Shown: piece after piece, positions 5,217 to 22,489 of the stretch
Layout of the letters: every line of letters begins with the position of its first letter
How positions within the stretch are numbered: the first letter of the stretch is position 1
Origin: a virus
IMG/VR virus record: IMGVR_UViG_3300017719_000234
Coordinates: 1 to 22,489 of that record
DNA length: 22,489 bases
Reading direction: 5' to 3' (one strand)
The notes under the pieces: generated by a model
What the model saw: only the letters and a program-made list of their open reading frames with translations
The model's database searches: none
Told to the model about the DNA's origin: nothing
Position numbers and translations under genes: made by a program

Positions 5217-6902
5217 TTACAGTGTTATACTCCATGTGCCTCTTGGATAATATCCGTCTATTGCAGTTTGCCAATAATAATTATTCCAGTAGTATTGTTG
5301 TCCAGTTGTTATATTTGTGACATATGTAGTTTCGTTATTGGTACTACCGTCCCAAATAATATCCCATTTAGATCCGTCCCACTCAACTATATCATTTGCA
5401 TCTGCAACAAAATCGCTATTATCTGCATTCTTCCACGCTGCTGCACCGTCTTCATTTAAATTTAAAATATACTTGACTTCGTCGCCTGCATTGTAAGGAA
5501 CATCTAATGTAATTAAGAATTTATCACCTGCATTAGAACCTGTTGCTTCTACAGCTAATCCGTTTACATAAACATTAAAACTTGTGACTGTTTCGTCGCC
5601 AATACGATCTCCAAGAGAACTTGATAAAATATTAAAGTCTAAATCGGTATGGATTTTGTTATCACTGTATGTTGCTTCAAAAGTTCTATCAACTTTAAAT
5701 CCTAATGGCCCTAATAATATTATACGTGTGCCAACTGTCTTTACACTACTAGGATTAAAATCAATCGGATTAACAATATAATCTATTGTTCCGTCAGTTT
5801 TAGTTGGTCCTTCTATTAGAGTATTACTAGGTAAAGTATCTGTATCCCAAACTATTTCTATAGTAAAATCATCGCCTGATTTAAGTGCAAACGTTCCTAC
5901 AACTTCGGTATTTAATTCTGCTCTACGAATTCTAATTTGACTTATTCCTGGTTGAAATCTTGCAGGTAGTTCAGCTTCTAATATATTCAGCCAATTTACT
6001 TCGCCTACACGCAATTTTCGATTCAATGCAAGCTGTGCAGTTTCTTCTTGTACAATAATATCAAAGTTTCTATAACTTGTCACAAGAGGGTTGTTAAGAT
6101 CCAGTCGTCCGTTTCCAACACTTGCACTACCGTTGGTCACAATTGACCCGTCTGGTAGTACAGTTGTACCACTTACTGCGCCTTGATCTGAATCTGTAGG
6201 AGGATTAAATCCTTCTAAACTAACTGTGCCTTGTTCTGTGTTGAATACACTTGTTATAATATCTGTAATAATTCCTAGTTTTTTAACTTTAGTCGGTGGC
6301 GAAATGTATATAGGTGCAGTAAAGCCAATTGTAGCAACATCAATATCATCTTGTGTTCCTACCGGTATACTTCTACTACTAAAATTTATATCTTCTAAAT
6401 ACAGCGTTGTTAAACTTGTCCAATCAACATAGTTGTCTGTTGTTTGAAATTCCAAGTCTGGGTTGAACAGCATAAAGATTTGTTCTAGTATTTGTAGCTT
6501 TTGCTCAGTGCTGGTGCTCCAAACATCTATGTTTATTGCCAGAGTATAAGGAGTAGGATGCAATCTTTCAACAGTATAACCCTTGGCTTGTTGAGATATA
6601 TAGCTGTTAGTATCGCTGTCAAATTCTTTTTCACGTAAGTTTATTTTACTAACAAAACTACTATCACTAAGTCTTGCTCTGTCCATTTGTAAACTAGTAA
6701 TATAAACACCAATACGTGGAGCACTTGGCAGCTTGTTTTCTGAATTTTCTCTTATAATACTACCGACTTGTCTTGTAATATCTCCATACATGCACGGAAC
6801 TCTTGTTAAATCGCCATCGCCGTCTTGATAACTAAAGTTGCTAAACACTCTAATTATTTGCGTAAGGTATCTACGTATTTGTCCATCATAAAAAAACTGC
6901 AT
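5217..6902 (-). CDS. gp15: gp15-like tail terminator / sheath stabiliser with long C-terminal extension
   Basis: T4 gp15 caps the tail, stabilises the contracted or extended sheath and joins the neck. The first 205 residues match the T4 pattern in order: FFYDGQIRRYLTQIIRVFSN at the N terminus (T4 YFYNSSFRRYATLMGDLFSN), RVPCMYGD, LPSAPRIGVYITSL, the phrase HPTPYTLAINIDVWS (T4 PSPIKMIYELSIFT), and ILEQIFMLFNPDLEF. At 561 residues it is about twice the T4 protein (272). The extra 350 residues are beta-rich, with an Ig-like segment (NVYVNGLAVEATG, VPYNAGDEVKYILN) and a Trp-rich tail (VEWDGSKWDIIWDGS, YYWNNYYWQ). The ATG overlaps the gp14 stop by one base (TAATG), so translation is coupled. It is unusual that it lies inverted relative to gp13, gp18 and gp19. 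Confidence 0.83.
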   Translation of the reverse strand: MQFFYDGQIRRYLTQIIRVFSNFSYQDGDGDLTRVPCMYGDITRQVGSIIRENSENKLPSAPRIGVYITSLQMDRARLSDSSFVSKINLREKEFDSDTNSYISQQAKGYTVERLHPTPYTLAINIDVWSTSTEQKLQILEQIFMLFNPDLEFQTTDNYVDWTSLTTLYLEDINFSSRSIPVGTQDDIDVATIGFTAPIYISPPTKVKKLGIITDIITSVFNTEQGTVSLEGFNPPTDSDQGAVSGTTVLPDGSIVTNGSASVGNGRLDLNNPLVTSYRNFDIIVQEETAQLALNRKLRVGEVNWLNILEAELPARFQPGISQIRIRRAELNTEVVGTFALKSGDDFTIEIVWDTDTLPSNTLIEGPTKTDGTIDYIVNPIDFNPSSVKTVGTRIILLGPLGFKVDRTFEATYSDNKIHTDLDFNILSSSLGDRIGDETVTSFNVYVNGLAVEATGSNAGDKFLITLDVPYNAGDEVKYILNLNEDGAAAWKNADNSDFVADANDIVEWDGSKWDIIWDGSTNNETTYVTNITTGQQYYWNNYYWQTAIDGYYPRGTWSITL

Positions 6903-8056
6903 TAATTACTTGCCTTTGCTCTCAGTGCTTTACTTAAAGCCTGTCTTTCAATTACTTCTTCACCACCAATTGTACTTACAGTAGTATTGTTAATAAATGT
7001 GCCTTTTAGGGTATCTCTATTATCGTCTGGTGTCATTGATGTTCTTACAGAGTCTTCTATTTTACTCCAGGTATTTCCATCGTATCTAAACAATCTATTT
7101 GGAAGTAAATCAACTCTTAAAAAATAATCACCTACGGCTGCACCTGCAGGAAATCCACTGCCTTGGCTGTATGGAGCACCGTTAGGCGGTATACCATCAC
7201 CAACTAAGTATCCCAGATACCCGTTGCCATCAGGTGTGACAAAAACTGTATCACTGGTTATAGTACCGTCAACTAGTAAGTCTTGGTAGTCTGCACTAAC
7301 AATTGCAACTTCGCCTCTTTCATTAACACTAAGTGTATAGAATTGTATAGTACTATAACCACTTTGATTTGCATAACTTTCAGCTTGTGCAATTACTGCA
7401 TCATTGATTTGCATTTCCTTTTCATATGTACTCAATACATCTCGAAGTGTATTTCCAGCTTCGTCTCCTGCATCTAAATCAAGTATATCTTTGTATTCTT
7501 GTGAATCCATTATTTGTTTTACTCTAACTCTATATAAATGCGGATACCATGTTTGACTAAAGCCTTCTGCTGCTCTTGTCACTTCATCAACTACATAAAA
7601 TCTTTTTAATGCTACACTATAATCGTTTGCTGCATATTCGTCAATCAAATGAGGTAATTCAAATACATCACCTGGCATAATTTTTCTACCTAGTGTTTTG
7701 ACACTAGAATTAATATGCATTGTCATAAACAATGTATCATTTTGTAAAAATAAACCAAACTGACTTAAATCAAAGTCTTGATCTTGTACATTATAGTGTG
7801 CTCTTACATTATAGATATCGGGATCGTATTTTCTATCTCGGTTTTCTAAAAACAATAAATCTTGTATATTAGTTTCTGCTACAGCATCATATGCTGGTTG
7901 TTCGGAAGTGGCCTCATCGGCACTTACAGATTTGGGTCCTAAATACTTGTGTATTAGTAAATCTGTTCCTCCCACTGTGAATTGTTCGTAGATTATCTTA
8001 TCTAAGAAAAAGTAATCGTTTGACCTCTCCGGCCTATATAGACTTAAACGTGGCAT
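6902..8056 (-). CDS. gp14: gp14-like neck protein with C-terminal extension
   Basis: T4 gp14 forms, with gp13, the neck that seals the packaged head for tail joining. Residues 95-190 follow the T4 gp14 order: DFDLSQFGLFLQNDTLFMTMH (T4 FFSKFGMQVQDEVTLSIN), KIMPGDVFELPHLID (T4 PKEGDLIYFPMDN), then RFYVVDEV and the Trp/Tyr region SQTWYPHLYRVRVKQI. The start MPRLSLYRPERSNDY at 8056 is preferred to the upstream ATG at 8107, because the longer reading frame would run back through the promoter and past the gp13 start codon. No Shine-Dalgarno precedes 8056. Residues about 200-384 have no T4 counterpart and include GDYFLRVDLLPNRLFRYDGNTW, a module also seen in gp18. The gene heads the minus-strand gp14-gp15-Nudix operon, driven from the shared promoter at 8062-8076. 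Confidence 0.8.
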   Translation of the reverse strand: MPRLSLYRPERSNDYFFLDKIIYEQFTVGGTDLLIHKYLGPKSVSADEATSEQPAYDAVAETNIQDLLFLENRDRKYDPDIYNVRAHYNVQDQDFDLSQFGLFLQNDTLFMTMHINSSVKTLGRKIMPGDVFELPHLIDEYAANDYSVALKRFYVVDEVTRAAEGFSQTWYPHLYRVRVKQIMDSQEYKDILDLDAGDEAGNTLRDVLSTYEKEMQINDAVIAQAESYANQSGYSTIQFYTLSVNERGEVAIVSADYQDLLVDGTITSDTVFVTPDGNGYLGYLVGDGIPPNGAPYSQGSGFPAGAAVGDYFLRVDLLPNRLFRYDGNTWSKIEDSVRTSMTPDDNRDTLKGTFINNTTVSTIGGEEVIERQALSKALRAKASN

Positions 8057-8061
8057 ACATA

Positions 8062-8076
8062 TATTTATGATAAATA
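8062..8076. promoter_or_regulatory. Palindromic bidirectional late promoter between gp14 and gp13
   Basis: The 15 bases TATTTATGATAAATA form a perfect inverted repeat around a central G. Read on plus, GATAAATA (8069-8076) faces gp13; read on minus, CATAAATA (8069-8062) faces gp14. Starts about 6 bases downstream of each motif would fall near 8082 (plus, 12 bases before the gp13 ATG, with GGAGA in the leader) and near 8056 (minus, exactly the gp14 ATG). The plus side shares the 16-base string GATAAATACTGTATGG with the promoter at 14559. Confidence 0.75.
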
Positions 8077-8093
8077 CTGTATGGAGAACTTTG

Positions 8094-9092
8094 ATGGTAG
8101 ACAGCAACTTAGCAACACAAAAACAACAGGTATTTGATTATGTAAACGCAATGTTAGGCGGAGGCATGGTTGATGTCGAGCTTGATCCAATTCATTATGA
8201 AACAGCGTTAACTAAATCATTAACCAAATATAGACAACGTAGTGAAAACAGTGTAGAAGAAAGTTATGTCACTATAAAACTAAACCAAGATCAGAATGTT
8301 TATACCTTGCCTCAAGAAATTATTGAAGTAAGAAAAATTCATAGACGCAACGTTGGTAGTAGACTCGGCGGGCTCGGAGGCAGCGGAGGCGGTAATCCAA
8401 TTTCTACACAGACTATTACTGCTACTGCTGGACAAACAGAATTAAATGTAAATTATAATTTATTATCAGTTGCTACAATCAGAGTTGAGATAAACGGAGT
8501 TGCTACTTCTGATTTCACTACCGATAGTGGACAAAATAACATAACATTGATAAATCCGTTAAATGCTGGAGATGTTGTAGGAATAAAACTTTTTCCAGAA
8601 GGTGAAAATACTGGCGGCAGTTTGTTTGAGCCATTTAATCTAGCATACACAAACACTTATTTGTTAGCAGGTTCGGGCATAGGCGGATTAGCAACTTATG
8701 ATTTCTTTGCACAACAACAAGAATTAGTAGGACGTATGTTTGGTAGTTTTATAGAGTTTACATGGAACCCTGCTACAAGTAAATTAACCATACTTCAACG
8801 CCCGCGATCAGAAGAAGAAGTTATGTTGTTTTGTTATAATTATCGTCCTGATGATCAATTATTAAAAGATTACAAGTCACAGCAGTGGATCAAAGATTAT
8901 ACACTTGCTAGTTGTAAATACATGCTAGGCGAAGCACGTAGTAAGTTTGCTACTATTGCTGGCCCAGGCGGTGGAACATCGTTAAACGGCGATACTCTAA
9001 AGAACGAAGCAATGCAAGAGATGGAAAAGCTAGAAGCAGATTTATCTATGGCTGTAGCAGGCGGTACAGGGTATGGATTCTTAATTGGATAA
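8094..9092 (+). CDS. gp13: gp13-like neck protein with inserted Ig-like module
   Basis: T4 gp13 is a neck protein that binds below the portal and closes the filled head. This 332-residue product (T4: 309) has the family N-terminus (QQVFDYVNAMLGGGMVDVELDPIHYETALTKSLTKYRQRSENS, residues 12-53; read in two parts around GGG) and a C-terminal half with TNTYLLAGSG, FEFTW-like IEFTWNPATSKLTI, and YKSQQWIKDYTLASCKYMLGEARSKF. Between them a Gly-rich linker (GGLGGSGGG, residues 92-100) leads into TITATAGQTELNVNY...VRVEINGV...GDVVGIKLF (about 103-170), an Ig-like or fibre-type module not in T4. The start at 8094 is chosen over the in-frame ATG at 8067 because GGAGA (8083-8087) lies at normal spacing and the upstream ATG lies inside the promoter. 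The next gene starts inside its last codons. Confidence 0.84.
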   Translation: MVDSNLATQKQQVFDYVNAMLGGGMVDVELDPIHYETALTKSLTKYRQRSENSVEESYVTIKLNQDQNVYTLPQEIIEVRKIHRRNVGSRLGGLGGSGGGNPISTQTITATAGQTELNVNYNLLSVATIRVEINGVATSDFTTDSGQNNITLINPLNAGDVVGIKLFPEGENTGGSLFEPFNLAYTNTYLLAGSGIGGLATYDFFAQQQELVGRMFGSFIEFTWNPATSKLTILQRPRSEEEVMLFCYNYRPDDQLLKDYKSQQWIKDYTLASCKYMLGEARSKFATIAGPGGGTSLNGDTLKNEAMQEMEKLEADLSMAVAGGTGYGFLIG

Positions 9093-14484: not shown

Positions 14485-14508
14485 TACTTAAATGAGATTG
14501 CATCAATG

Positions 14509-14533
14509 AAAAGGAGTCGAAAGGCTCCTTTTT
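14509..14533 (+). terminator. Intrinsic terminator after gp19
   Basis: AAAAGGAGTC (14509-14518), a GAAA tetraloop (14519-14522) and GGCTCCTTTT (14523-14532) form a 10-bp stem with one T-G wobble, followed by TTCTTT. The GNRA tetraloop and T-rich tail are typical of a strong intrinsic terminator. Confidence 0.88.
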
Positions 14534-14558: not shown

Positions 14559-14566
14559 GATAAATA
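14559..14566 (+). promoter_or_regulatory. Late promoter GATAAATA abutting a start codon
   Basis: GATAAATA is followed by CTGT and then ATG at 14571, with no Shine-Dalgarno. The 16-base string 14559-14574 is identical to 8069-8084 at the gp13 promoter. A late start about 6 bases downstream falls on or within a base of the ATG. Confidence 0.75.
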
Positions 14567-15848: not shown

Positions 15849-16222
15849 TGAGCAGTTATGCAGATGAAGAAAAATCGCAAAAGCAAGACAGTGGTAAAGA
15901 AGTTAGACAATTATTTGATAGGTATTTTACCAAGCAAATTAGTTTAACTAGTAATGAAGTTGATACTGTTGTAGGATTTTTTACAAAAAGAAAGTTTACA
16001 AAAGATGCAGCAATTGCAGTATCTACTGTAATATTACAACAAGCCAAATCAGAAAATAAAAAAGTATTTGAAATTGTTGACACACTTGAAGGATTAGATG
16101 AAGTCCAATTAAGTAGGCTAGTAAGTGCTATCCTTAATAATAACAGAAGCAGAATAAGTGCATTAGGTTATAAAAACGATTATGCAACTCAAACTACAGA
16201 GAATAGAAATGTGAGACTGTAA
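15848..16222 (+). CDS. Unknown 124-residue protein in the tail/head cluster
   Basis: I do not recognise a named family. After a charged N terminus, the sequence VRQLFDRYFTKQISLTSNEVDTVVGFFTKRKFTKDAAIAVSTVILQQAKSE (cited in order) and VFEIVDTLEGLDEVQLSRLVSAILNNNRS suggests a compact all-helical domain of about five helices. No catalytic or metal-binding motif and no membrane segment is apparent. AGGAA (15836-15840) lies 7 bases before the ATG, which sits in the stop codon of the tube-like gene, so the two are coupled. A baseplate- or tail-associated virion protein is inferred from position alone. The stop overlaps the gp4 ATG by one base, so expression is in a tight row of four genes. Confidence 0.75.
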   Translation: MSSYADEEKSQKQDSGKEVRQLFDRYFTKQISLTSNEVDTVVGFFTKRKFTKDAAIAVSTVILQQAKSENKKVFEIVDTLEGLDEVQLSRLVSAILNNNRSRISALGYKNDYATQTTENRNVRL

Positions 16223-16659
16223 TGGGACGCTTTGCACAGGGCAAGTTTACACTAAAAAACCCTGACAAATATATAGGTGGCCGAACTCCAACATATCGTA
16301 GTAGCTGGGAATTTGCTTTCATGCGCATGTGTGATCAAAATGATAACATATCAAAATGGGCAAGTGAATCAATAAAAATTCCGTATAGAAATCCTTTTAC
16401 AGGAAAACATACAATATATGTTCCAGACTTTTTTATAGTATATAATGACCGTACTGGAAAACAACATGTAGAATTAATTGAAGTTAAGCCTGCAAATCAT
16501 ACTTTTAAAGAACAACTAGGTAATAGTAAACATAATAAAGCACACTACGTATTAAATCAAGCTAAGTGGGGAGCAGCAAAGCACTATTGTAAACAAAAAG
16601 GCATGGTGTTTAGAGTTGTCAACGAAGGAGATATTTTCCATCAAGGCAAACGTAGATGA
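16222..16659 (+). CDS. gp4: gp4-like head completion protein, PD-(D/E)xK nuclease fold
   Basis: In T4, gp4 acts after packaging to complete the head so that the tail can join. The 145-residue product starts MGRFAQGKFTLKNPDKYIGG and continues TYRSSWEFAFMRMCDQND, KIPYRNPFTGKHTIYVPDF and HVELIEVKPANH, the order of the gp4 family. The residues E30, D69 and E87-x-K89 are arranged as in PD-(D/E)xK nucleases (VPDFF, LIEVK), and the early Glu is as in TnsA-like members. It is close to the length of T4 gp4 and appears intact, with no missing catalytic position. Its ATG overlaps the previous stop by one base, and its 3' end overlaps the next gene by 4 bases. DNA trimming at the head entrance is a plausible but unproven activity. 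Confidence 0.88.
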   Translation: MGRFAQGKFTLKNPDKYIGGRTPTYRSSWEFAFMRMCDQNDNISKWASESIKIPYRNPFTGKHTIYVPDFFIVYNDRTGKQHVELIEVKPANHTFKEQLGNSKHNKAHYVLNQAKWGAAKHYCKQKGMVFRVVNEGDIFHQGKRR

Positions 16660-18287: not shown

Positions 18288-19946
18288 ATGAAAATATCTG
18301 AAGTAAAAGTTATTAAAGAAGCAGCACCAACTAGATTTATTCCAACACACTACGGTGGACCAGGAGGCATGAATAATGTCATGCTACACACAGATGGTAA
18401 TCTTTATTTTCAAAAACAAAGAGAAGATGGCGCCGGAAGAGAAATAGTAAGATGGAACGGCAACCCAACAGGTGAAGGATTTTTTGGTAAATGGAACCCT
18501 GCAACTATTAAAGGTACAATAGTTGACGGACAGCGAGTTCCGTATCCAGCAGGAACAAACTTTAGTAATGCACCAAGAGCAGCAGCACCAGCAGCAGCAC
18601 CAGCGGCAGCACAGCCAACAGCAGCAAATCCTACACCAAATACTAATATTACAGGTACAACAACAACACCTAATGGTAATTTACGTAATGGTAGCAGAGG
18701 ACCAGATGTAAAAAGTATTCAGCAATCATTAGGCATGGCAAGAGATGAACAAGATGGCATATTTGGTCCAAAAACAGAAGCAGCAGTCAGAGCATTTCAA
18801 CAAGAAGCTGGAATTCAAGTTGACGGTGTAGTTGGCCCAGAAACTAGAGCAGCATTAATGGATAGACTTTCATCGCAAACTTCTCCAGCACCAGAGCCAG
18901 AAGCAGCACCTGATCCTGACACAGCACCTGAACCGCCAAGAACCGCAGATGCAGATGAGACTCCTCCACCAGAAGCAGATTTTGGTGCTGGCGCAGAACC
19001 AACAAGCAGACTAGATACCAAAGGTGAAACACCAACAGCAGAACCTGAAGAACCTACAGAACCTGCTCCAAGTGGACGTGTGGCAGCAGACACTATTAGA
19101 GATAGGTTGTCTCCAGGAGCTCAAGAAAAATTTGATGATCAAATAGAAGAATTTGATGGCGACCTTTTTAGAATGTTAGTTGATGCAAAAAATCAAGCAG
19201 ATGACTTTTGGCAAAGAGGTGAGTGGAGAGATTTTTACGAAGAAGTATTTGGTATTACAGTAAGTGGCGGCAGAGTAACAGACAATCCACGTGCAGGTAT
19301 AATTGATATTAATTCAATTCCTCGAATGCCTAGAGGCAGAGGAGCAGCCAATGCAGATACCGGAGCATTGCTTTCAAGAATAAAATACAAAACAATTGAC
19401 GATATGGAAGAGTCAAGGATATTAGATCTAGCAGGAGTAAATATGAAAAAGAAACTAGACGAAGCAAGCATCAACATTAACGGTGCAGATGCAAGCGAAG
19501 TAGCAGAAATACTCCGCATGATGCAATTAGCAGGTGCAGATGGTGCCAAAATGGTAGAGCCGGATGATATTAATCCTGGTCCTAAGCCTTGTCCAATTTG
19601 CGGTAAAATGCATGGACCAAGTCAGCCAATGGGAGGCTGTGGTAGTAAACCAAGCGAACCAGAAATGGGCGATATGATTCGTTTAATGGCACCTGAAGAA
19701 GAAATGGCACAAGAAGACATAGACGGAAACTTTGCCGATGCAACTACAGAACCAGATGACGAATACATGAGATCAAATGCAGGTGATGTTAGTGATGCAA
19801 TACCAGCAGGAAACGACTTGCATAAAGAAAAAGGATCGTATCCGGCAACAGCAGGCGGTGATAACCCTATGAACACTGAAGGTGAAGATTTAGAAGAAAC
19901 AATCAAATCACAATTGCTTGCAGCATTAGCTAAAAGAAAACAGTAA
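18288..19946 (+). CDS. Multidomain virion-like protein with peptidoglycan-binding domain and CCHC cluster
   Basis: The 552-residue product starts MKISEVKVIKEAAPTRF, with I3-S-E5 and I9-K-E11 as possible gp21-type cut sites. A first domain (15-90) with GNLYFQKQ and Trp56/Trp69 is followed by an Ala/Pro linker (95-128) and then a peptidoglycan-binding-1 domain (about 133-194: LRNGSRGPDVKSIQQSLG, DGIFGPKTEAAVRAFQQEAGI, DGVVGPETRAAL). A Pro/Glu linker (197-262) leads to a helical region (265-325). The segment SININGADASEVAEILRMMQLAG precedes C435-x2-C438-x3-H442-x8-C451, a probable zinc site, and an acidic tail. There is no lysozyme or amidase domain, so binding rather than hydrolysis is inferred. 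The gene is one base after the preceding stop, with TAGGAG before the ATG. It ends at a strong terminator. Confidence 0.75.
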   Translation: MKISEVKVIKEAAPTRFIPTHYGGPGGMNNVMLHTDGNLYFQKQREDGAGREIVRWNGNPTGEGFFGKWNPATIKGTIVDGQRVPYPAGTNFSNAPRAAAPAAAPAAAQPTAANPTPNTNITGTTTTPNGNLRNGSRGPDVKSIQQSLGMARDEQDGIFGPKTEAAVRAFQQEAGIQVDGVVGPETRAALMDRLSSQTSPAPEPEAAPDPDTAPEPPRTADADETPPPEADFGAGAEPTSRLDTKGETPTAEPEEPTEPAPSGRVAADTIRDRLSPGAQEKFDDQIEEFDGDLFRMLVDAKNQADDFWQRGEWRDFYEEVFGITVSGGRVTDNPRAGIIDINSIPRMPRGRGAANADTGALLSRIKYKTIDDMEESRILDLAGVNMKKKLDEASININGADASEVAEILRMMQLAGADGAKMVEPDDINPGPKPCPICGKMHGPSQPMGGCGSKPSEPEMGDMIRLMAPEEEMAQEDIDGNFADATTEPDDEYMRSNAGDVSDAIPAGNDLHKEKGSYPATAGGDNPMNTEGEDLEETIKSQLLAALAKRKQ

Positions 19947-19962
19947 TACATCCCCCCAACTC

Positions 19963-19989
19963 AATAGCGTCTTCGGGCGCTATTTTTTT
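19963..19989 (+). terminator. Intrinsic terminator with UUCG tetraloop before gp17
   Basis: AATAGCGTC (19963-19971), TTCG loop (19972-19975) and GGCGCTATT (19976-19984) form a 9-bp stem with one T-G pair, and T19983-19989 gives the U-tract. It is a textbook strong terminator placed 1 base before the next late promoter. Confidence 0.93.
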
Positions 19990-19990
19990 G

Positions 19991-19998
19991 GTTAAATA
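19991..19998 (+). promoter_or_regulatory. Late promoter variant GTTAAATA abutting gp17
   Basis: GTTAAATA is followed by CAAT and ATG at 20003, with no Shine-Dalgarno. A start about 6 bases past the motif would fall on the ATG, giving a leaderless message. The variant differs from GATAAATA by one base. Confidence 0.6.
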
Positions 19999-20002
19999 CA
20001 AT

Positions 20003-21583
20003 ATGGCAGCATCATTAGACGGCGTCTTAATCAAAAAGGCGAATAGAAAAGAAACATTTACAGAAGAACAAATAGCAGACCTTTTGGCCTGCATGGATCC
20101 GGATACAGGATACTTACATTTTTCTCGTAAGTTTGCTTATATACAACACCCAACTAAAGGCAAACTACTGTTTGATCCTTATGAATATCAGCTAGGGTTA
20201 ATGGATAGTTATCATAGTTTTAGATTCAACATTAATATGATGCCTAGACAAACAGGTAAGACTACATGTGCAGCAATCTATCTAGCATGGTTTGCAATGT
20301 TTAATCCAGATCAAACTATTCTTATTGCTGCACACAAATACACAGGTGCGCAGGAGATTATGTCACGCATACGCTTTGTGTACGAAACTTGTCCAGATCA
20401 TATTAGAGCAGGTGTCACAAGTTATAACAAAGGCAGTATTGAGTTTGAAAATGGAAGTCGTATTGTAAGTCAAACAACAACAGGCAACACAGGACGTGGT
20501 ATGAGTATTTCGCTATTATACTGTGACGAGTTTGCATTTGTTATGCCTAACATTGCAGAAGAATTTTGGACTAGTATTTCGCCTACACTAGCAACTGGTG
20601 GTCGTGCTATTATTACTAGTACACCTAACAGTGACGAAGATACATTTGCTACTATTTGGAAACAAGCAGAACAAAAGTTTGACGAACATGGTGAAGAACA
20701 AGATGTAGGCATAAACGGATTTCATAGTTTTATTGCAGAATGGCACGAGCACCCAGACAGAGACGAAGCGTGGAAAAAAGAAGAAATTGGCCGGATTGGT
20801 GAAGAAAAATTCCGTCGAGAATATGGTTGTGAATTCTTAGTATTTGACGAAACACTAATCAATAGTATTAAACTTGCATCTATGGAAGGCAAGGATCCTA
20901 TTATAAGAATGGGACAAGTGCGTTGGTATAAAAAACCTGATGCAAAAAAATCATATGTAATAGGATTGGATCCTAGTATGGGCACTGGCGGAGATTATGC
21001 AGCAATACAAATTATAGAATTGCCCACATACGAACAAGTTGGAGAATGGCAGCATAATACAACTGCAATACCAGGACAAGTTAGAGTACTTGCAGATGTA
21101 TGCAAGTATCTTGCAGATGAAATGAAAACGTCTAGCAACATATATTGGAGTGTTGAAAACAACGGTATTGGCGAAGCAGCCTTATTAGTAATCAATGATT
21201 TTGGAGAGGAAAATATTCCAGGATTGTTTATAAGTGAACCTATACGAAAAGGTCACGTAAGAAAATTTAGAAAAGGCTTTAATACAACGCACAGTAGTAA
21301 AACAACTGCATGTGCAAGACTAAAAACAATGGTCGAAAATGATAAACTTACTGTACGCAGCAAAGCACTACTTAGTGAGTTAAAAGCATACATTGCATCA
21401 GGTAGTAGTTTTCAAGCAAAACCCGGACACCACGATGATTTAGTTAGTAGTCTTTTACTTACACTTAGAGTAATGACAGTAATGAAGGATTGGGATCCAG
21501 CAGTGTATAATACCTTTAGTCAAATTGAGCATGAAGAAGATTACGAAATGCCAATGCCGATCTTTGTTAGTAGCAGTTATTGA
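20003..21583 (+). CDS. gp17: gp17-like large terminase (packaging ATPase-nuclease)
   Basis: This motor pumps DNA into the head and cuts the concatemer. The 526-residue product (T4: 610) carries Walker A MMPRQTGKTT (K86), Walker B SLLYCDEFAFV (D175-E176) and the coupling motif IITSTPNS (near 205). The nuclease domain has GLDPSMGTGGD (D323), WSVENNGIG (E385) and KPGHHDDLVSSLLL (D478/D479), corresponding to the RNase H-like triad Asp, Glu, Asp of T4. An upstream in-frame TTG at 19988 is rejected because it lies within the terminator; ATG 20003 starts MAASLDGVLIKK. No Shine-Dalgarno is present. The terminator and late promoter directly upstream make it a separately controlled gene. The stop TGA overlaps the next promoter. 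Confidence 0.96.
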   Translation: MAASLDGVLIKKANRKETFTEEQIADLLACMDPDTGYLHFSRKFAYIQHPTKGKLLFDPYEYQLGLMDSYHSFRFNINMMPRQTGKTTCAAIYLAWFAMFNPDQTILIAAHKYTGAQEIMSRIRFVYETCPDHIRAGVTSYNKGSIEFENGSRIVSQTTTGNTGRGMSISLLYCDEFAFVMPNIAEEFWTSISPTLATGGRAIITSTPNSDEDTFATIWKQAEQKFDEHGEEQDVGINGFHSFIAEWHEHPDRDEAWKKEEIGRIGEEKFRREYGCEFLVFDETLINSIKLASMEGKDPIIRMGQVRWYKKPDAKKSYVIGLDPSMGTGGDYAAIQIIELPTYEQVGEWQHNTTAIPGQVRVLADVCKYLADEMKTSSNIYWSVENNGIGEAALLVINDFGEENIPGLFISEPIRKGHVRKFRKGFNTTHSSKTTACARLKTMVENDKLTVRSKALLSELKAYIASGSSFQAKPGHHDDLVSSLLLTLRVMTVMKDWDPAVYNTFSQIEHEEDYEMPMPIFVSSSY

Positions 21584-21589
21584 TAAATA
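21582..21589 (+). promoter_or_regulatory. Late promoter GATAAATA overlapping the gp17 stop
   Basis: GATAAATA starts within the TGA stop of gp17 (21581-21583). It is followed by GTATACA and then ATG at 21597, so a start about 6 bases downstream leaves only 2 bases of leader and no Shine-Dalgarno. Confidence 0.7.
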
Positions 21590-21596
21590 GTATACA

Positions 21597-22489
21597 ATGA
21601 GAAATTTAAACGTAGTAGCAGAACAACTTTTTAATGAAATTAGAGGACGCTTTCCTAGTGTCACTATCGGTGACGGCGACGGTAATGTCACAAATGAGCC
21701 AGCTATGGCCCGTTTTTATGAATTTGATTTCAAAAGTTTAGGAAATACATTAGGTAAAATTAGTGTCACATTAGATGAAAAGTCTGGTGTCACAATTATG
21801 TATAATAAAGATTTTACCGAAGAAGTAGGTTATACAGAACAAGAAGAATGGTACAATTTTTTAAAAGGTGTACGAGTATTTGCAAAAAAGCGTTTACTAA
21901 ATTTTGAAGTTAGAGATATTAATAAGAGTAACTTTACTCAAAGAGATTATAGCTATATGGCAACAAATCGCGGAGAAACAAAAATGAATGAATCAGCATT
22001 ACGTGGAACTAATAAAACAAGTTATCAACGTATTGGTAATGCTAAATTAAGTATTAGGCATACGGGTAATATAGAAGAAGGCGAAAGCAGAACTAAAAAA
22101 ATTGGATCTCTTTTTGTAGAAAATACATTAGGTGAAAAATTTAAATATCCTTTCAAACATCTTGCAGGTGCAAGAGCAATGGCTGTTCATGTTAGTGAAG
22201 GCGGGCATCCGTTTGATGACTTTGGCAAACATATTACAAGCATGAGTGAAGAACTTTCAAATCTCCGCAAGTTCAAAACATACATGGGTCGTAGTAGTGT
22301 AATGGCAGAAAGTTTATCTGAGCATATGGAAACTGTAAATGAACGAATTGCAACTGTACGTAAAACTGTTCAAAGTCTCCAAAAGCCATCAAATTACACA
22401 AAAGCATTTGAAAATTTTGAACCAATTGAAAAAACAGTTGTGCCAGAGGATATTGCAGATAGTTGGATTGATCAATTAACAGTAAAACA
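21597..22489 (+). CDS. Unknown protein, 5' part, cut by the window edge
   Basis: The reading frame is open from ATG 21597 to the right edge, giving about 297 residues. It begins MRNLNVVAEQLFNEIRGRF and has an alpha/beta N-terminal part (MARFYEFDFKSLG, LGKISVTLDEKSGVTIMYN, EEWYNFLKGVRVFAKKRLLNFEVRD), then a charged region and a helical C-terminal part with heptad-like stretches (NERIATVRKTVQSLQKP). No enzymatic motif, signal peptide or membrane segment is seen. Proteins of this general look follow gp17 in some marine T4-like phages, from memory only. A late structural or core-associated protein is likely from its promoter and position, but I cannot assign a function. The absence of a Shine-Dalgarno and the motif 7 bases upstream fit the near-leaderless pattern of its neighbours. 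Confidence 0.75.
   Translation, partial: MRNLNVVAEQLFNEIRGRFPSVTIGDGDGNVTNEPAMARFYEFDFKSLGNTLGKISVTLDEKSGVTIMYNKDFTEEVGYTEQEEWYNFLKGVRVFAKKRLLNFEVRDINKSNFTQRDYSYMATNRGETKMNESALRGTNKTSYQRIGNAKLSIRHTGNIEEGESRTKKIGSLFVENTLGEKFKYPFKHLAGARAMAVHVSEGGHPFDDFGKHITSMSEELSNLRKFKTYMGRSSVMAESLSEHMETVNERIATVRKTVQSLQKPSNYTKAFENFEPIEKTVVPEDIADSWIDQLTVK

Follow-up and report, generated by a model that had tools for sequence, protein, structure and literature searches.

A predicted bidirectional T4-type late promoter between the divergent neck genes of a T4-like virus

Examination of the junction between the divergent gp14-like and gp13-like neck genes of a T4-like myovirus suggests that it is a bidirectional late promoter, in which two complete T4-type (gp55-sigma) -10 elements stand back to back. 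We consider this prediction to be quite probable. The stretch of DNA analyzed (the window) comprises one complete virus record, 22,489 bases long, and is a fragment of the genome of a marine virus whose relatives include Atu_ph07, Phosso and PA5oct-type jumbo phages.

Two late motifs and the neck genes that flank them

The junction contains the 15-bp sequence TATTTATGATAAATA (8062-8076), which, as originally predicted, is an inverted repeat without mismatches, centred on a G (8069). It reads as CATAAATA on the minus strand (8069 down to 8062) and as GATAAATA on the plus strand (8069-8076). The two 8-mers abut, and base pair 8069 is the only one in common. Because the TAAATA cores are separate, the original prediction that both strands use the same bases holds for this single base pair, and is overstated for the cores. 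The features of the junction and its surroundings are as follows:

5217..6902, minus: gp15-like tail sheath stabilizer, start overlapping the gp14 stop (Pfam T4-gp15_tss, 8.5e-19)
6902..8056, minus: gp14-like neck protein (head closure Hc2), 384 aa, ATG at 8056 (PHROG 11591; Foldseek)
8056, minus: predicted gp14 mRNA start, on the A of the ATG (leaderless), placed by analogy with T4, where the element spans -13 to -6 (PMC1524935)
8062..8069, minus: CATAAATA, putative -10-type element of a late promoter reading into the gp14-gp15 operon; its TAAATA core (8067-8062) is invariant in 30/30 junctions
8069..8076, plus: GATAAATA, putative -10-type element of a late promoter reading into gp13; its TAAATA core (8071-8076) is invariant in 30/30 junctions
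8082, plus: predicted gp13 mRNA start (+/- 1 nt), from the T4 spacing
8083..8086, plus: Shine-Dalgarno GGAG of gp13, from the sequence and conserved in relatives
8094..9092, plus: gp13-like neck protein (head-tail adaptor Ad2), 332 aa (PHROG 211; PDB; hhalign)

The gene labels of the original prediction were borne out, by profile for gp13 and by fold for gp14. The profile of the plus-strand gene matched T4 gp13 in the PDB (E 6e-10), with 97.3% in hhalign to T4 gp13, and the label holds. Comparison of the minus-strand gene with T4 gp14 by sequence gave no significant match. A first AlphaFold model had a pLDDT of 42, and a wider alignment raised it to 56 (moderate quality). The four best Foldseek matches of the model were chains from gp14-containing portal-neck complexes of T4 (E 1.3e-5), followed by stopper and connector proteins from other phages, and the gp14-like label holds at moderate model confidence. 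The 14-15 pair points away from gene 13 in this phage, whereas in T4 genes 13-14-15 all run in one direction.

The start of gp14 was placed at ATG 8056, as Met1 still lines up in relatives of as little as 37% identity. That of gp13 was placed at ATG 8094, behind the GGAG, instead of at the mechanical ORF start (8067); ATG 8067 and TTG 8107 were ruled out as gene starts by the relatives and by the placement of the Shine-Dalgarno sequence. An out-of-frame ATG (8081-8083) lies 4 nt past the plus TAAATA core and directly 5' of the GGAG, opening a short frame that overlaps the gp13 start; it is missing in some relatives. Residues ~95-175 of gp13 include an extra domain of ~75 residues, present in this phage and in two relatives (L089 and L093), and absent from most others. 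Elsewhere in the window, a small ORF (16222-16659) matches PHROG 218, annotated as 'head closure', yet matches the TnsA-like endonuclease N-terminal domain of Pfam (2e-20).

T4 late promoters, which depend on gp55, gp33 and gp45, have an 8-bp element, TATAAATA, that spans -13 to -6, with transcription starting 5-6 nt past it, and lack a -35 element (PMC2988020, PMC1524935), and the late motif of S-PM2 is NATAAATA (PMC2984593). The 8-bp elements at the junction are TATAAATA-like, with a TAAATA core and, as in S-PM2, variable first bases. Also as for T4-type late promoters, no -35 element is present, and such motifs stand 5' of late structural genes (gp13, gp14, gp15, terminase and a tail-tube-like ORF), with GATAAATA itself repeated 5' of further structural genes in the window. 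A scan for sigma70-type promoter hexamers placed for the predicted gp14 and gp13 starts found none. The arrangement differs from that of T4-type late promoters in that two elements abut head to head, and in that one start codon lies on the predicted transcription start. Since a -35 element is missing from T4 late promoters, two could abut without loss.

A search with T4 gp55 revealed homologs in G001, G007, Atu_ph07, Phosso, SCTP-2 and Ettore, and the gp55-like proteins of G001 and Atu_ph07 fall to PHROGs 12791 and 234, both of which are late-sigma families. The gp55-like ORF is thus carried by relatives, and the 22.5-kb window, a fragment, does not itself contain one. We infer promoter activity and start sites at the junction as follows. 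Each host RNA polymerase with a gp55-like late sigma factor would use one of the two elements. In the minus direction, a start at ~8056 would yield a leaderless gp14-gp15 mRNA with the ATG as its first codon, and in the plus direction, a start at ~8082 would yield a gp13 mRNA with a ~12-nt leader holding the GGAG.

The palindrome as such is unexceptional and constitutes weak evidence: the window contains 15 perfect inverted repeats (arms of at least 7, centre 0-3), compared with 8.9 ± 3.3 expected in first-order Markov sequences. A head-to-head TAAATA pair with a spacer of 2-10 bp is rare, with 0.17 expected per random window, and the observed pair sits between two divergent genes.

The junction in related viruses and in known systems

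Two IMG/VR scans yielded 160 loci, comprising 30 distinct 50-bp junctions. All 30 keep TATTTA...TAAATA, that is, two outward-facing TAAATA cores, with varying neighbours, in support of the original prediction that each half is a T4-type late motif facing gp14 on the minus strand and gp13 on the plus strand. The inward spacer between the cores is 3 (12 junctions), 4 (7), 5 (5), 7, 8, 9 (3) or 10 bp. The outward distances vary little: the gp14 ATG is 5 nt (26 junctions) or 4 nt (4 junctions) from its own core, and on the gp13 side the GGAG is 5 nt from its own core in 26/30, compared with 6 nt after the plus core in the window. The varying inward spacer and the near-constant outward distances argue for two independent promoters over a dyad operator: the position of each motif is tied to the gene it faces and is free of the other motif.

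The perfect dyad is present in just 10/30 distinct junctions. Relatives with 91% gp14 identity have the junction TATTTAGCATAAATA, in which the dyad is broken and both promoters are retained. The search of homologous gp14/gp13 junctions that had been proposed thus went against the palindrome, which is lost in close relatives, and its role as a functional unit is not supported, both late motifs being kept in 30/30. The bare palindrome was rejected as a signal, being neither rare nor kept as a perfect dyad in relatives. Alternatively, a dimeric DNA-binding protein that regulates both genes might use the palindrome as its operator, with the resemblance to promoters secondary. Common operators are frequent between divergent genes, and the dyad is perfect in the window and in those 10 junctions. 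Such an operator would call for constant spacing, however, whereas the spacing of the half-sites (3, 4, 5, 7, 8, 9 or 10 bp) changes their helical phase, the distances to the start codon and to the Shine-Dalgarno sequence are almost fixed, and other late genes are preceded by a lone copy of the motif in a single orientation. We regard the operator as highly improbable, and rejected it on the varying half-site spacing.

A second alternative is that one motif alone is an active promoter, the other being a chance match or a relic whose gene is read from elsewhere. AT-rich DNA often contains TAAATA cores, and weak matches abound in it; sites resembling TATAAATA with a single mismatch showed no enrichment over shuffles. 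Yet both cores are invariant in the 30 distinct junctions despite their varying neighbours, no other promoter was found near the junction for either gp14 or gp13, and only antisense gp13 sequence lies upstream of gp14. A single active promoter is therefore quite unlikely.

The pair of late promoters predicted here recurs in more distant viruses. The isolate Atu_ph07 keeps it as TATTTACCGTTAAATA, with a 4-bp spacer, at ~40% protein identity. The spacing is wider in Phosso (14 bp), and another locus (L435) has a pair with a 4-bp spacer. Among the marine records scanned, the pair is present in 11/11, and is the sole such pair in 9/11.

The original prediction had held T4-type late promoters to be normally single. 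This is too strong, as T4 itself has head-to-head late motifs, TATTTATCATATTTATAAATA (116441-116461), between gene 26 (minus) and gene 51 (plus), with a core spacer of 9 bp. The T4 genes are likewise divergent and late, and encode baseplate proteins; they differ from the present pair in identity, and both have leaders and Shine-Dalgarno sequences. The back-to-back arrangement of late motifs is therefore not unique to this phage, and the conserved pair of predicted promoters at the neck genes adds a new example, in a geometry of its own. No report of divergent or leaderless T4-type late promoters was found in the open-access literature searched.

Bidirectional promoters have also been described in bacteria by Warman, Grainger and colleagues. 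There, a symmetrical -10 element gives rise to divergent mRNAs, and the bound polymerases are mutually exclusive (PMC12825309). The -10 element is common to both directions, with starts that are usually separated by 18 bp, and in some cases by 10 or 23 bp (PMC12825309). In contrast, the junction described here contains two full phage-sigma elements with separate cores, 3-10 bp apart, and predicted starts ~26-33 bp apart.

Predicted leaderless geometry of late genes

The gp14 ATG lies 5 nt past the motif, which implies a leaderless mRNA, a point missed by the original prediction. The predicted start falls on the A of the ATG, no Shine-Dalgarno sequence is present, and the gap is 4-5 nt in 30/30 junctions. 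To see how far this geometry extends, TAAATA-to-ATG gaps were counted in the window and 11 long relatives, with mechanical ORFs as gene calls. The distribution was bimodal, with 53 sites at 4-5 nt, 9 at 6-7, 2 at 8-12, and then a broad class at 13-33 nt. A Shine-Dalgarno-like string was found at 6/53 sites of gap 4-5, compared with 85/104 of gap 13-33. Leaving out the window, there were 50 cases of gap 4-5 on the 11 relative contigs, belonging to 11 protein families; as the contigs are related, the 50 cases are not independent, and the family count is the fairer figure. We read the gap 4-5 class as predicted, systematic leaderless late mRNAs. Two further examples in the window are:

14559..14566, plus: GATAAATA, core 4 nt before ATG 14571 of the tail-tube-like ORF, after a terminator (14508-14533); predicted leaderless
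19993..19998, plus: TAAATA core 4 nt before the terminase ATG 20003, directly after a terminator (19963-19984); predicted leaderless

Both terminators are intrinsic. For terminase, 35 distinct upstream regions have the core at 4 or 5 nt, with TAAGTA instead in three records. Among the terminase orthologs L166-L245, TAAATAC was associated with a gap of 4 and any other next base with a gap of 5 (15/4 compared with 3/13; Fisher p 0.0006, uncorrected for relatedness). The gene that follows terminase has no obvious Shine-Dalgarno sequence, and its ATG comes 7 nt past a TAAATA (21582-21597); in relatives this motif is conserved at 4-7 nt.

AT-rich start regions favour translation of genes that lack a Shine-Dalgarno sequence. 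TAAATA at 4-5 nt before an ATG might accordingly be a translation-start element or an unstructured AT element, in which case the leaderless reading would be wrong. Several observations speak against this explanation. Among the 15 permutations of the hexamer, a peak at gap 4-5 is confined to TAAATA and to hexamers that overlap it with a one-base shift: in the count that leaves out the window, 12 of the other 14 give 0-4 sites, and the exceptions, AAATAT (23) and ATAAAT (11), are TAAATA displaced by one base. The terminase copy stands directly after an intrinsic terminator, and TAAATA is also found 13-33 nt 5' of genes with a Shine-Dalgarno sequence (85/104). We therefore judge an AT element to be unlikely.

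The 11 gene families with TAAATA 4-5 nt before the ATG are those of marine relatives (L301-L340). The Pelagibacter phage HTVC008M, isolated on SAR11, has 11 sites at gap 5, compared with ~0.1 for control hexamers. The gap 4-5 peak was absent in T4, S-PM2, Syn9, Atu_ph07 and Phosso (0, 0, 0, 2 and 2 sites, respectively).

In pelagimyophages, prediction of late promoters by the cyanophage methods was unsuccessful (PMC7029224). A motif standing almost on the start codon may be the reason for this failure, and offers a rule for finding late promoters. If these late mRNAs are leaderless, the phages may use a route of translation not used by T4 late genes, possibly tied to the compact genomes of their hosts.

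Expected mutual exclusion and a possible choice of direction

The predicted start sites are ~26 bp apart in the window and at most 33 bp apart in relatives. At a distance of ~26 bp, an open complex in one direction would cover the other element, so that the two directions would exclude each other; in T4, activated complexes reach 13 bp further upstream for the clamp (PMC2988020). Mutual exclusion, as originally predicted, is expected from this geometry together with known polymerase footprints. At bidirectional promoters of E. coli, competition appears only at high activity (PMC12825309).

In T4, swapping the nicked strand reverses the direction of late promoter activation (PMC2988020). As the nicked strand sets the clamp-activated direction in T4, clamp orientation could choose the direction here. 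A balance between the two neck proteins brought about by exclusion is speculative, as is a choice of direction through the orientation of the sliding clamp. Because of the reversal seen in T4, back-to-back gp55 promoters would be a clean natural test of clamp polarity.

A broader proposal, which is possible and which we put forward only tentatively, is that in a marine T4-like group including HTVC008M many key late mRNAs are leaderless and clamp orientation also picks the divergent gene. The leaderless part would apply to terminase, gp14, the tail-tube-like gene and others, and the clamp choice to neck or head genes at back-to-back pairs. HTVC008M has such a junction, TATTTATATCTAAATA, at 18916 (minus)/18943 (plus) (L433:1917-1944), with back-to-back motifs like those described here. 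The genes it separates are unlike gp14/gp13, being a divergent DNA end protector and head closure pair. Both annotated ATGs are 5 nt from the motif, giving leaderless geometry on both sides, unlike the neck-gene junction.
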